Below, piece after piece: positions 9,547-30,352 of a DNA stretch of 36,572 nt. The notes under the pieces are model-generated. The model was not told where the DNA came from, did not search any database, and saw only the letters and a list, made by a program, of their open reading frames with translations. The position numbers and the translations under genes were made by a program. The stretch is from Prevotella sp. (GTDB lineage: Bacteria > Bacteroidota > Bacteroidia > Bacteroidales > Bacteroidaceae). The stretch is from positions 1 to 36,572 of the forward strand of contig JAGAWQ010000009.1 of assembly GCA_017941345.1 (NCBI GenBank). Direction: 5' to 3'. Position 1 is the first letter of the stretch; each line of letters starts with the position of its first letter.

Positions 9547-10749
9547 AATGTAAATGAAAATATGAAGAAATGGATTTGCCGTCTATGGCAGATGCTGTGC
9601 ACCGCTTATCAATGGGGGCGACAGCATTTCATTCATTTCTTTCATTCCTTTCATTTCTCATTCCTGAAAAGGCTCGACTGGTACATCATCAACAAGTTCA
9701 TCGGCACCTACTTCTTCGCCATCATCCTGATTATCTCTATCTCTATCGTCTTCGACGTCAACGAGAATCTGGCCAAGTTTACGAACTACAATGCACCTTT
9801 GAGAGCTATTGTGTTCGACTACTATGCCAACTTCGTACCCTACTTTGCCAACCTCTTCTCCCCATTGTTTGTCTTCATTGCCGTCATCTTCTTCACATCA
9901 AAGCTGGCAGGCAACTCCGAAATCATCTCGATGCTGGCCTGCGGCATGAGTTTCAAGCGTTTGTTGCGCCCCTACCTCATCTCAGCAGCTTTCATAGCAG
10001 CCCTTAACTTCTATCTCGGCTCGTACGTTATCCCCAAGGGAACGGTAGTACGCCACGATTTCGAATCGCTATACAAGAATAACCAGAAGAACACGTCGGC
10101 ATCAAACATCCAGCTGATGGTCGACAAAGGTGTGGTGGCCTACATCTCGCAATACGACGACATCCGTAAGACGGGCTACGGCTTTGCACTCTATAAGTTT
10201 GAGAACAAGAAGATGGTTTCGCAGATGAATGCCAACGTCATCCAGTACGACACCATCTCCGACGCCCGCTACCATTGGAAGGCGCGTAACTACAAGATTC
10301 GCACGCTGAAGGGTATGCGCGAACAGATTACCAGCGGTTCGGAGATAGACACGCTGATACAGATGGAACCAATGGACCTCGTCTTCTCTAAGGGGCAGCA
10401 GGAAACATTCACGTCGCCTGAGTTGAAACGGTATATCTCGAAACAGCAGTCAAGAGGCTCGTCGAATGTGGTGCAGTATGAAGTGGAATACCACAAGCGC
10501 ATCGCCTCCTCGTTTGCCTCGTTCATTCTGACCATCATCGGTGTATCGTTGTCGTCGCGTAAGCGCAAGGGCGGCATGGGCATGTATCTGGGTATCGGTC
10601 TGGCGCTGTCGTTCACCTACATTCTGCTGCAGACGGTCTGCGCCACCTTCGCCATCAATGCCGACACGCCGCCAATGCTAGCAGCCTGGATTCCAAACAT
10701 TCTATATTCATTCATCGCCTATTTCTGTTATAGGCAAGCACCGAATTAA
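9523..10749 (+). CDS. LptF/LptG-family permease (YjgP/YjgQ)
   Basis: An inner-membrane subunit of the ABC machine that extracts lipopolysaccharide and passes it to the periplasmic Lpt bridge. Multiple hydrophobic helices are seen: ~66-88, ~108-132, ~150-170, then a periplasmic domain, then ~340-360 and ~370-400. The family core begins at LKRLDWYIINKFIGTYFF (residue ~47); relatives usually start just before this point. Here about 46 extra residues precede it, encoded by a 9-base-period inverted repeat and the DNA between its arms. Possible starts are 9523, 9532, 9541, 9562 (MKKWICRLWQ) and 9592; I chose the first. Sequence alone does not separate LptF from LptG. It lies 7 bases after tgt. Confidence 0.88.
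   Translation: MKEMKEMSNVNENMKKWICRLWQMLCTAYQWGRQHFIHFFHSFHFSFLKRLDWYIINKFIGTYFFAIILIISISIVFDVNENLAKFTNYNAPLRAIVFDYYANFVPYFANLFSPLFVFIAVIFFTSKLAGNSEIISMLACGMSFKRLLRPYLISAAFIAALNFYLGSYVIPKGTVVRHDFESLYKNNQKNTSASNIQLMVDKGVVAYISQYDDIRKTGYGFALYKFENKKMVSQMNANVIQYDTISDARYHWKARNYKIRTLKGMREQITSGSEIDTLIQMEPMDLVFSKGQQETFTSPELKRYISKQQSRGSSNVVQYEVEYHKRIASSFASFILTIIGVSLSSRKRKGGMGMYLGIGLALSFTYILLQTVCATFAINADTPPMLAAWIPNILYSFIAYFCYRQAPN
9625..9663. repeat. Right arm of the inverted repeat, 9-base period (CATTTCTTT)n, inside the permease gene
   Basis: Four units, CATTTCATT, CATTTCTTT, CATTCCTTT and CATTTCTCA, run from 9625 to 9660. They encode the odd stretch HFIHFFHSFHFSF just before the conserved family core. 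Confidence 0.75.
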
Positions 10750-10768
10750 GGTAAAAGATAAAAGGTAA
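10748..10768. repeat. Heptad tract AAGGTAA/AAGATAA/AAGGTAA between the permease and helicase genes
   Basis: Three 7-base units fill nearly the whole 23-base gap. The first supplies the last two bases of the permease TAA stop and the tract ends 4 bases before the helicase GTG. Confidence 0.65.
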
Positions 10769-10772
10769 AAAA

Positions 10773-12050
10773 GTGACTTTTGAAGAAACATATTTGAACG
10801 ATAATATCCTCGATGCGCTCTACGACATGCACTTCGAGGAGATGACACCTATACAGGAGCGTTGCATACCCGAAATTCTGGACGGACGCGACCTCATCGG
10901 TGTAGCCCAGACGGGCACGGGAAAGACTGCTGCCTATCTGCTGCCGATACTTAGCATGCTCGACGACGGGGGATTCCCTAAGGATGCCGTCAACTGCATC
11001 GTGATGTCGCCCACCCGCGAGCTGGCCCAACAGATTGACCAGGCTATGCAGGGCTTTGGCTACTACCTCGACGGGATATCCAGCGTAGCCGTCTATGGCG
11101 GTAATGACGGTAACCGCTTCGACCAAGAGATGAAAGGCCTGAAGATGGGTGCCGATGTCGTCATTGCCACTCCTGGTCGCCTGCTGTCGCACATCCGCAT
11201 GGGACACCTCGACCTCTCCCGTCTCTCTTTCTTCGTGCTCGACGAGGCCGACCGCATGCTCGACATGGGTTTCTCCGATGACATCCTGCAGATTGCCAAG
11301 ATGCTGCCTCCTGACCATCAGACCATCATGTTCTCGGCTACGATGCCGACAAAGATACAGGAGCTCGCGCGTACCTTATTAAATCATCCTACGGAAGTCA
11401 AGATAGCCGTCTCGAAACCTGCCGAGAAGATTCAGCAGTCAGCCTACATCTGCTATGAACCTCAGAAGCTGGGCATCGTCCGTTCATTGTTCAAGGCCGG
11501 TGAACTGCAACGCGTCATCATCTTCTCAGGCAAGAAAGACAAGGTGAAGGACATCACGCGCGAACTGAAACACATGCACATCAACTGTGCCCCCATGCAC
11601 TCTGACCTCTCGCAGGCTGAGCGCGACGAGGTGATGTACCGTTTCAAGTCCGGACAAGTCGATGTGCTGGTAGCAACAGACATCGTGGCTCGCGGCATTG
11701 ACATCGACGACATCCTGATGGTCATCAACTACGATGTCCCTCACGATGCTGAAGACTATGTGCATCGCATCGGACGTACTGCCCGTGCGCAACGCGATGG
11801 TATTGCCATCACCTTCGTATCCCAAGCTGACATCCGCTATTTCGCTGATATTGAACGCTTTCTGGAGCGCACCATCGATAAGAATCCATTGCCCGAAGGA
11901 CTGGGTGAAGGACCGGAATACACTCCCATGACACCACGTAAGAGCACTCGCGGACGAGGTGGTCGCAGGCGTAATGGGAAGGGAAAAGGCAGTCCACATC
12001 GCGGAAACAAGAACCATCGTCAAAAGAGTTCGAAGCCAAAAGCGAATTAA
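10773..12050 (+). CDS. DEAD-box ATP-dependent RNA helicase (RhlE-like)
   Basis: This 425-residue cytoplasmic RNA helicase probably acts in ribosome assembly or RNA turnover. It carries the Q motif (TPIQERCIP, ~25-33), Walker A AQTGTGKT (45-52), DEAD at ~157, SAT at ~189, HRIGRTAR from ~331, and a very basic Gly/Arg/Lys C-terminal tail (~390-425) suited to RNA binding. The start is GTG: MTFEETYLNDNILDALYDM is the usual N-terminus of this subgroup and no ATG fits. It follows the permease by 23 bases of heptad repeat and is probably the last gene of the lon-tgt-permease-helicase run. Confidence 0.93.
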   Translation: MTFEETYLNDNILDALYDMHFEEMTPIQERCIPEILDGRDLIGVAQTGTGKTAAYLLPILSMLDDGGFPKDAVNCIVMSPTRELAQQIDQAMQGFGYYLDGISSVAVYGGNDGNRFDQEMKGLKMGADVVIATPGRLLSHIRMGHLDLSRLSFFVLDEADRMLDMGFSDDILQIAKMLPPDHQTIMFSATMPTKIQELARTLLNHPTEVKIAVSKPAEKIQQSAYICYEPQKLGIVRSLFKAGELQRVIIFSGKKDKVKDITRELKHMHINCAPMHSDLSQAERDEVMYRFKSGQVDVLVATDIVARGIDIDDILMVINYDVPHDAEDYVHRIGRTARAQRDGIAITFVSQADIRYFADIERFLERTIDKNPLPEGLGEGPEYTPMTPRKSTRGRGGRRRNGKGKGSPHRGNKNHRQKSSKPKAN

Positions 12051-12104
12051 ACATTTTTAAGAAAAATAAACAGCCGTCGGAGAACAACGAGCCGATATTT
12101 TTCG

Positions 12105-12112
12105 TAACTTTG
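12105..12112 (+). promoter_or_regulatory. -7 promoter element of rpoD (TAACTTTG)
   Basis: TAACTTTG is preceded by TTTTTCG and followed by CACC. No clear -33 TTTG is present at 19-20 bp. An 8-bp inverted repeat flanks it: AAACAGCC (12068-12075) and GGCTGTTT (12126-12133). A 12-bp palindrome GCCTTTAAAGGC (12117-12128) sits at the expected transcription start. Confidence 0.6.
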
Positions 12113-29767: not shown

Positions 29768-30285
29768 TTATTCAGATGCACATTCTCCCACTTCAACTTA
29801 TCCTCGTTCTGAGGCTTGCGCTCATCAGCCTTATGACCAATGGCAAGGATGCAGAGACACGACATATTCTCCGGAATGTCAAGCACACCCTGAATGACGG
29901 TATCAGCGCTGGTGCCGTCAGACAGTCCGCGACCACGCATCTGTATCCAGCACGAGCCAAGCCCCAGGGCCTCAGCCTGATACTGCATCGAGATGGCAGC
30001 AATAGCGCCGTCTTCCACCCAACAGTCGTTCTGCATGGGGTCGCCCAACACGACGATAGCCAATGGCGCTCCCTTCAGGAACTGACCACCCATATCCTTC
30101 GCCTCCGACAACTTCTCCAGGTCGGTCTTATCGTCGACAACCACAAAGTGCCAGGCACGCTGACTCTTTGAAGTGGGAGCCATCAGTCCTGCACGAAGTA
30201 TCAGCTTCACGTCGTCGCCATCGATTTCCTCATCCGTAAACTTACGATGAGAGCGACGCATCTGTACTAAATCCTTGAAATCCAT
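29761..30285 (-). CDS. Nitroreductase-family flavoprotein
   Basis: This 174-residue protein has the FMN-binding N-terminus VQMRRSHRKFTDEEID (7-22), APTSKSQRAWHFVVV (36-50), then DGAIAAISMQYQAEALGLGSCWIQ and a C-terminal LAIGHKADE. This is the standard NfsA/NfsB-like fold using FMN and NAD(P)H; physiological substrate unknown. ATG 30285 gives MDFKDLVQMRRSHR. An upstream in-frame extension (to 30339) crosses the promoter and is rejected. It is the first gene of the four-gene operon and is divergent from the GNAT-like gene. Confidence 0.9.
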   Translation of the reverse strand: MDFKDLVQMRRSHRKFTDEEIDGDDVKLILRAGLMAPTSKSQRAWHFVVVDDKTDLEKLSEAKDMGGQFLKGAPLAIVVLGDPMQNDCWVEDGAIAAISMQYQAEALGLGSCWIQMRGRGLSDGTSADTVIQGVLDIPENMSCLCILAIGHKADERKPQNEDKLKWENVHLNKW

Positions 30286-30308
30286 AATTTTTTTATTGAT
30301 TGACGCCA

Positions 30309-30316
30309 CAAAATTA
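30309..30316 (-). promoter_or_regulatory. -7 element of the nitroreductase-DUF2520-HAD-maf operon
   Basis: On the minus strand TAATTTTG preceded by TTTCG, 23 bases before the ATG at 30285. No -33 TTTG visible. It forms one arm of a perfect 13-bp inverted repeat (30309-30321 and 30356-30368) whose other arm is the -7 box of the opposite gene. Confidence 0.6.
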
Positions 30317-30324
30317 CGAAAAAA

Positions 30325-30352
30325 ATATGAATTGTGCATTGTGCATTATGAA
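30325..30352. repeat. Heptad tract ATATGAA/TTGTGCA/TTGTGCA/TTATGAA in a divergent promoter
   Basis: Four 7-base units lie between the two mirror-image -7 boxes and contain the base positions expected for the -33 box of the plus-strand gene (ATTG, 30338-30341). Confidence 0.65.

Follow-up and report, generated by a model that had tools for sequence, protein, structure and literature searches.

Heptanucleotide arrays in the window

Positions 1 to 36,572 of contig JAGAWQ010000009.1, from a Prevotella sp. assembly of 2.05 Mb and 60% completeness (GCA_017941345.1), carry imperfect tandem arrays of seven-base units within and between genes; this whole stretch is referred to here as the window. Genes were called with our own hexamer model rather than a standard gene finder and were named with Pfam scans; the putative addA and addB take their names from our reading of UvrD-helicase and PDDEXK domains. 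A sequence-only reading of the window had reported nine tracts with a strict 7-base period and a different unit at each site. We scored self-matching at a fixed lag (match +1, mismatch -1.5), and seven of the nine tracts exceeded chance:

10748..10770, plus strand: AAGGTAA, 3.3 copies, lag-7 score 11; begins at the stop of lptF/G (gene 9523-10749) and reaches the start of a DEAD-box helicase gene
18906..18946, minus strand (TGA on minus): GAGGTGA, 5.9 copies, score 19; inside addB
19475..19506, plus strand: GAGGTTA/GTGGTGA, 4.6 copies, score 12.5; inside addB
20541..20568, minus strand: GGGGCAA (TGCCCCT on plus), 4 copies, score 16; inside addB
24046..24078, minus strand: AGAGTGA, 4.6 copies, score 18.5; sense, covering the stop codon of gene 24049-24867 (minus strand) and preceding thrS (22071-24017, minus)
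27507..27535, minus strand: GAACTGA, 4.1 copies, score 17; antisense in an rRNA methylase gene (27246-27974)
30328..30356, strand unassigned: TATGAAT/TGTGCAT, 4 copies, score 14.5; in a divergent intergenic region

These seven, the first of them included, were recovered by Tandem Repeats Finder, which returned neither of the other two. The expectation from 20 shuffles was 0.65 tracts of score 8 or more per shuffled window, and both remaining tracts lie within it. The weak tracts are:

24957..24982, strand unassigned: GGGGCAA-like, between genes; score 8.0 for 24962-24982
27966..27986, strand unassigned: GAGGTTA-like, where the rRNA methylase gene and maf converge; score 7.5
5855..5874, plus strand: AAAAGAA, 2.9 copies; score 10.5

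The placement at gene ends and inside genes was borne out, with three of the seven arrays in addB, one in the rRNA methylase gene and three at junctions. The period is not strict, since lag-7 matches across the nine tracts range from 9/14 to 19/21. Units do vary from site to site, but four of the window tracts are variants of a single degenerate unit, NRRNTGA, or of its TTA form (GAGGTGA, GAGGTTA, AGAGTGA and GAACTGA). When lags 5, 6, 8-11 and 13 were scored in the window, tracts of score 12 or more appeared at period 9 only (three tracts). Separately, a 21-bp tandem repeat (CCCATTACTCCGTAAGTATTT, 3.4 copies) lies at 36342-36414, directly after the last gene.

Period 7 across the genome and its relatives

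The excess of period 7 over neighbouring lags holds across the window's genome. In 720,416 bases (the window plus 40 further stretches, 35% of the assembly) we found 86 tracts of score 12 or more at lag 7, compared with 0-17 at lags 2-6 and 8-13 (17 at lag 11, 15 at lag 9, 6 at lag 8 and none at 4, 5, 10 and 13). Lags 14 and 21 are harmonics, and the 22 tracts at lag 22 are of another kind. Exact runs of at least 12 numbered 27 at lag 7 and 0-4 at each remaining lag of the 2-13 range (409 kb subset of the same genome), and three dinucleotide shuffles gave no lag-7 tracts. Similar results were obtained from 80 loci of named records (1.65 Mb, titled Prevotella, Prevotellaceae, Bacteroidales and one Xylanibacter), with 65 tracts at lag 7 and at most 11 at any other lag from 2 to 13; those closest to the window's genome in AddB carry Prevotella or Prevotellaceae in their titles, and many of them come from ruminant stomachs. 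The lag-7 excess sets in at runs of about six bases in coding and intergenic DNA alike. Repetition is thus beyond expectation with period 7 the commonest, as in heptanucleotide long simple sequence repeats (SSRs). Arrays also occur in records without a metagenome-assembled genome label (L032, L038) and in assemblies whose longest contigs make up most of the genome (G073, 5.08/5.1 Mb; G332, 3.15/3.7 Mb), so they are not an artefact of metagenome assembly.

Array length had a mode of 30-35 bp in three data sets, with few arrays of 21 bp. Part of this peak may be a detection effect, because imperfect arrays need more length to be detected.

Repeats of other periods were also seen. Lag 11 was the second commonest lag under 14 in the window's genome, and period-11 arrays with several units (AATCGGACAAC, TCCCATCGTTG) were found at L012:14901, L025:580 and L160:19428. 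The period-22 repeats of this genome (L013:8109, L019:2299, L152:11431 and L159:5334) have a palindromic core of the type TTCCCAnnnTGGGAA in about three copies, and recall repetitive extragenic palindromic (REP)-like or BrickBuilt elements.

A shared degenerate unit

Once register and strand were aligned, the consensus unit fitted NRRNTGA in 57/86 tracts of the window's genome, 34/59 tracts of the related genome G040 (418 kb, in stretches partly picked for places matching the window's genome) and 45/127 tracts of the other named loci, a pattern that about 5% of random heptamers fit. The preference is found both inside genes (26/37 tracts of the window's genome; letter-shuffled mean 6.2, maximum 11 in 300) and between them (31/49; mean 6.6, maximum 16), and is weakest between genes at the other named loci (20/77; mean 9.2, maximum 18). 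Inside genes the TGA lies mostly antisense (21 antisense versus 7 sense in the window's genome, 7 versus 0 in G040, and 39 versus 8 at the other named loci, which have the addB region in common, so that in-gene arrays there are not independent). Selection for stop codons therefore does not explain the choice of unit. Within arrays, deviation from the consensus along NRRNTGA was 16%, 12%, 7%, 7%, 7%, 10% and 6%.

Turnover between relatives

Sequence of G040 aligned at 75-95% identity spanned 29 of the 86 tracts. Two arrays were identical in both genomes (L151:4255, L152:13326), the array at L017:2737 differed by one 7-bp unit, and at three otherwise aligned junctions (L017:5553, L159:1189, L159:10395) the array was wholly missing from G040. 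The unit itself can change in place: the addB site at 20541 has TGCCCCT in the window's genome and CACCTCT in G040, and L017:18902 and L159:1533 carry heptamers in the window's genome and ACTAGTATN-like nonamers in G040. This nonamer family also occurs at L171:19003, L187:11440 and L178:607 in G040 and at L009:19318 in the window's genome, some of these sites being orthologous to heptamer sites of the latter.

The window arrays behave in the same way. The array at 24046..24078 is retained in G040 with point differences, that at 27507..27535 is missing there, and at 30328..30356 G040 has TCTTCAT-type units. The array at 18906..18946 is missing from L029 (Prevotella sp. SIG145), the closest named record by AddB at 88% protein identity, and at 19475..19506 L031 exceeds L030 by 21 bp. 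At 20541..20568 there are CACCTCT-type units in L029 and L032, CACCACT-type units in L036, and no array in L030, L031 and L033; the lptF/G-helicase junction has other heptamers in L032, L034 and L035. Many tracts therefore differ between orthologous loci, and protein conservation is not the account of them; with the genome-wide lag-7 excess, neither outcome that would have refuted the sequence-only reading was observed. At the addA-addB junction the two genes overlap by 4 bases in 40/81 loci, and an array is present in 14/81, with differing units.

Length differences at tracts were multiples of 7 in 16/54 cases versus 11/113 elsewhere (Fisher p 0.003) in 24 related pairs, which have species in common and hence are not independent. 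Ten of the 11 multiples elsewhere were 21, a step that coding frames favour; with multiples of 21 removed the counts were 5/43 at tracts and 1/103 elsewhere. Single steps of 7 bp (L034/L035), 14 bp (L051/L055) and 21 bp (L030/L031, addB) were observed.

Polarity and hairpin pairs

The strand reading TGA tends to lead out of the nearest gene. This was so in 26/27 decided cases in the window's genome, 14/21 in G040 and 14/20 at the other named loci (54/68 combined, p 1e-6; p 0.19 for G040 and 0.12 for the other loci alone), counts limited to tracts with a single TGA strand that lie within 60 bp of a gene, ties excluded. Five distant genomes gave 42/48 decided cases; the 59 arrays behind this figure came from genomes and places chosen as rich in the pattern, and 3 in-gene arrays, 6 contig-edge arrays and 2 ties were omitted. 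Polarity at stop codons is partly built in, since gene calling closes the frame at a sense array, and in the window's genome a stop codon was the closer gene end in 19 of the 27 decided cases, with the TGA strand leading away in 18; a further 9 arrays were ties, about equidistant from stop and start. At start codons, the counts of away versus toward were 8/0 in the window's genome, 4/3 in G040 and 1/2 at other loci, so that among Prevotella the rule is firm only in the window's genome. There, 11/25 sense arrays have a stop and also a start no more than 20 bp away. Intergenic arrays between co-directional genes were sense rather than antisense in the window's genome (25/8) and at the other named loci (17/7), and were unbiased in G040 (12 sense versus 10 antisense among intergenic arrays).

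Neighbouring arrays of opposite direction always converged (22/22): 8/8 pairs in the window's genome, of which L017:7059 and L028:1 are weak, 3/3 in G040 (within 300 bp) and 11/11 at distant loci (within 350 bp). Of the tracts of the window's genome, 4/86 had an inverted partner at most 300 bp away (1.5% at random), as did 18/59 of the partly chosen G040 sample (0.4% at random). Distant loci include plain hairpins; the arms of L223 have the same 20-mer order (AGATGAC GGATGAA AGATGA), and those of L232, of period 8, are nearly complementary. Arms matched their own partner better than they matched arms from different hairpins in G332 (permutation p 5e-5 for 10 pairs), with limits set by eye and the misplaced right-arm interval of L211:1380 included, and did not match beyond chance in G073 (5 pairs, p 0.57). 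At L211, L212 and L213 of G332, nested palindromes (GTGCGAGACC..GGTCTCGCAC and GTCGCCTCTGGCGAC) lie between the heptamer arms and recur at several loci.

One hairpin is common to the window's genome and G040, with a long stem predicted in both and arms of period 9 in the former and 7 in the latter. The window has a pair of this kind:

9519..9544, plus strand (TGA strand): left arm, period-9 array AGAAATGAA, 2.9 copies; spans the start of the lptF/G frame
9625..9658, minus strand: right arm, period-9 array CATTTCTTT, 3.8 copies; in the variable start of lptF/G

The arms at 9519-9658 are predicted to form a long hairpin (-60.4 kcal/mol for 165 nt), which is absent in L029. At the same place L034 and L036 have an unrelated inverted repeat (CCTCCCCCTAGCCCCCTCC / GGGAGGGGCTGGGGGTAGG) in place of the period-9 hairpin, and the lptF/G start is thus one site with unrelated palindromes in different species.

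Distribution across Bacteroidota

Four tandem units of RRNTGAN were found in 137/296 Bacteroidota genomes, compared with 46/296 for period 8 and 36/296 for period 6. The window's genome had 53 + 30 matches, versus 6 + 12 for the reversed pattern, and none for the period-8 and period-6 controls; matches overlap inside long arrays and so are not locus counts. The reversed-pattern control was high in several genomes and above the forward pattern in some; units of the AAAGTGA type fit both patterns. On the AddB tree, array density showed 22, 23 and 16 changes at three cut-offs versus shuffled means of 27.4, 26.4 and 19.6 (as few changes or fewer in 7, 28 and 8 of 300 shuffles), a weak clustering by lineage. 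Dispersed RRNTGA arrays of period 8 are numerous in the Bacteroidota genomes G220, G330 and G218, and G073 too uses period 8 at many dispersed loci. Rfam at gathering scores gave no matches in 12 sources including the window.

Origin of the arrays

With little better than even confidence, we propose that these are genome-wide, imperfect heptanucleotide arrays on NRRNTGA that are renewed by slippage and template switching and are mostly neutral. Arrays would be gained, lost and re-formed in place by slipped-strand and template-switch replication in steps favouring 7 nt, and would persist where insertions are tolerated, that is in intergenic gaps and, if in frame and free of stops, in genes. For some arrays an inverted pair would be the original or a later state; the two arms of such a pair can fold on each other, and either arm may serve as a template for the other. 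Slippage with a preferred 7-nt step accounts for the abundance of the arrays, their turnover, the in-frame insertions and the stepwise changes in length. The polymerase or recombination step, with its preference for NRRNTGA, is what we infer from these patterns, and we assume that most arrays are neutral. The number 7 appears to be a preference and not a rule, because periods 8, 9 and 11 occur, hairpin arms switch between 9 and 7, and some genomes favour 8. The suggestion made from the window alone, of an enzyme copying in 7-base steps or a protein reading 7-base registers, found no support, no causal gene having been searched for; a fixed enzyme template was set aside, as units vary within arrays and other periods occur.

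Several observations weigh against this proposal. Slippage alone predicts neither a common unit motif nor polarity, and a length mode of 30-35 bp with few 21-bp arrays is unlike simple growth from short seeds, even if detection favours long arrays. Most length differences at tracts (38/54) are not multiples of 7. Local seeding of arrays from the stop-start sequence at addA-addB was convincing by eye and failed the test (p 0.73 and 0.59); the array units there are no nearer to the array-free junction than are other intergenic units of the window's genome, so that local seeding is not demonstrated. Finally, the TGA positions deviate from consensus less often (152/2009, 7.6%) than the other four (288/2778, 10.4%). 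Such a difference lends little support to strong protection of TGA, and is a hint of constraint that may also stem from the choice of register.

The same difference is consistent with a second explanation, in which NRRNTGA arrays and convergent hairpins act in RNA or DNA as functional elements at gene edges, for example in ending transcripts, in stop-to-start coupling or as sites for single-strand-binding proteins, with selection keeping the unit class and direction while the letters drift. We regard this as possible, if on the unlikely side. It would fit the outward polarity (26:1, 14:7, 14:6 and, in distant genomes, 42:6), the convergence of opposite neighbours (11/11 in the window's genome and G040 together, 11/11 at distant loci), the arm matching in G332 and the complementarity that the arms of the hairpin shared with G040 have kept despite their change of period; MacGregor 2015 (PMC4679880) proposed translational regulation by TAACTGA arrays before starts. 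Against it stand the chance-level arm matching in G073, the variability of the G of TGA (10.4%), the many arrays within genes, mostly antisense, the fast turnover of array presence, the inverted partners of only 4/86 tracts, and a polarity that partly reflects gene calling at stops and is uneven at starts (8:0, 4:3, 1:2). Matched arms and a concerted change of period would be explained by arm-to-arm template switching within hairpins and, likewise, by selection for a boundary structure. We favour the mutational origin because arrays come and go so readily and the TGA positions show slight protection at most.

A copied cassette, with arrays relocating by ectopic recombination or as tiny inserts resembling miniature inverted-repeat transposable elements (MITEs), seems improbable. 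Two arrays of L017 did give at least 46 matches at no fewer than about 27 places in G040, with 40 of 145 candidates scored, and the swap of the unit or even of the repeat family at one site (7-mer versus the ACTAGTATN 9-mer), together with the nested palindromes common to the arms at L211, L212 and L213 of G332, would suit such copying. The other distant loci inspected by eye have no common sequence outside the units, unit number and length vary, and no target-site duplication was seen by eye at three presence/absence sites, a systematic search not having been made. Chance, codon periodicity or conserved protein repeats can be dismissed for the strong tracts, since shuffles give none, the lag-7 excess extends between genes and orthologues differ, and there is scarcely any prospect that they explain more than weak tracts such as those at 24962 and 27966, which lie within chance.

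Comparison with known repeats

The short tandemly repeated repetitive (STRR) sequences of cyanobacteria are tandem heptanucleotides, like the arrays described here.

According to a passage of PMC4679880 citing Mrazek 2007, heptanucleotides are the most abundant class of long repeats in most genomes, and a passage of Rehm 2015 (PMC4692102) likewise dates the finding of heptamer over-representation in many bacterial genomes to 2007; slippage related to polymerase contacts was proposed as the cause in Mrazek 2007, as cited there. Our arrays agree with those long SSRs in the over-representation of heptanucleotides; these citing passages say nothing of a common motif, of polarity or of pairing into hairpins.

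A close likeness is to the TAACTGA arrays of MacGregor 2015 (PMC4679880), known from marine Beggiatoaceae, Cyanobacteria and five Bacteroidetes, so that the earlier statement that this lineage has no named counterpart is not supported. As far as the sections of that paper used here describe them, those arrays also have period 7, a sporadic distribution between relatives and interspersed related 7-mers, with 2-6 copies in the main genome, and their unit fits NRRNTGA. Their intergenic arrays are mostly forward and those inside genes reverse, a habit also seen here in the window's genome and the other named loci and not matched in G040, where intergenic arrays are unbiased (12 versus 10; 0 versus 7 in genes). 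The same sections describe one exact unit with related heptamers rarely or never repeated, unlike the many units of one degenerate class found here, where TAACTGA was the consensus of no tract in the window's genome or G040. TAACTGA arrays mostly face a start codon, often ending just before it, whereas ours are mostly nearest a stop, and only one inverted repeat is described among them.

Other systems share fewer features, again as described in the portions of the papers drawn on. The G-quadruplex heptamers GGGAATC / GGGGAYT of Xanthomonas and Nostoc (PMC4692102, which also mentions a Calothrix heptamer case) are dispersed, variable between relatives and found as inverted pairs, as here; few of our consensus units carry GGG, so quadruplex formation is not general. 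BrickBuilt, a MITE of Porphyromonas gingivalis (PMC4596501), has a 23-nt unit, terminal inverted repeats and a leader and tail. No such ends, constant termini or target-site duplications were seen by eye in the loci we inspected, which were not searched systematically. In the open-licence literature we found no paper describing a degenerate heptamer class, its polarity or its hairpin pairing in Bacteroidota, which is not proof of absence.

Bacterial heptamer repeats were noted in 2007 and 2015, and their cause is not agreed. The phylum-wide degenerate unit, its direction and the period-shifting arms provide three handles, testable in ordinary gut and environmental Bacteroidota, for separating slippage, templating and boundary function, and would help to explain the rapid variation, from one close species to the next, of some operon junctions and stretches inside genes in Prevotella. 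We tentatively raise the idea, more doubtful than not, that Bacteroidota, and perhaps Beggiatoaceae and Cyanobacteria, have in common a gene-boundary element of tandem NRRNTGA. Four of its seven letters and even its period (7, 8 or 9) could vary, its TGA strand would run outward from the gene, and arrays facing each other would pair as hairpins with arms that co-evolve through selection or arm-to-arm templating. On our best reading, the arrays belong to the known kind of heptanucleotide SSRs in a form that is new, and what looks new is the common degenerate unit, the direction it takes and the way in which it pairs as hairpins.

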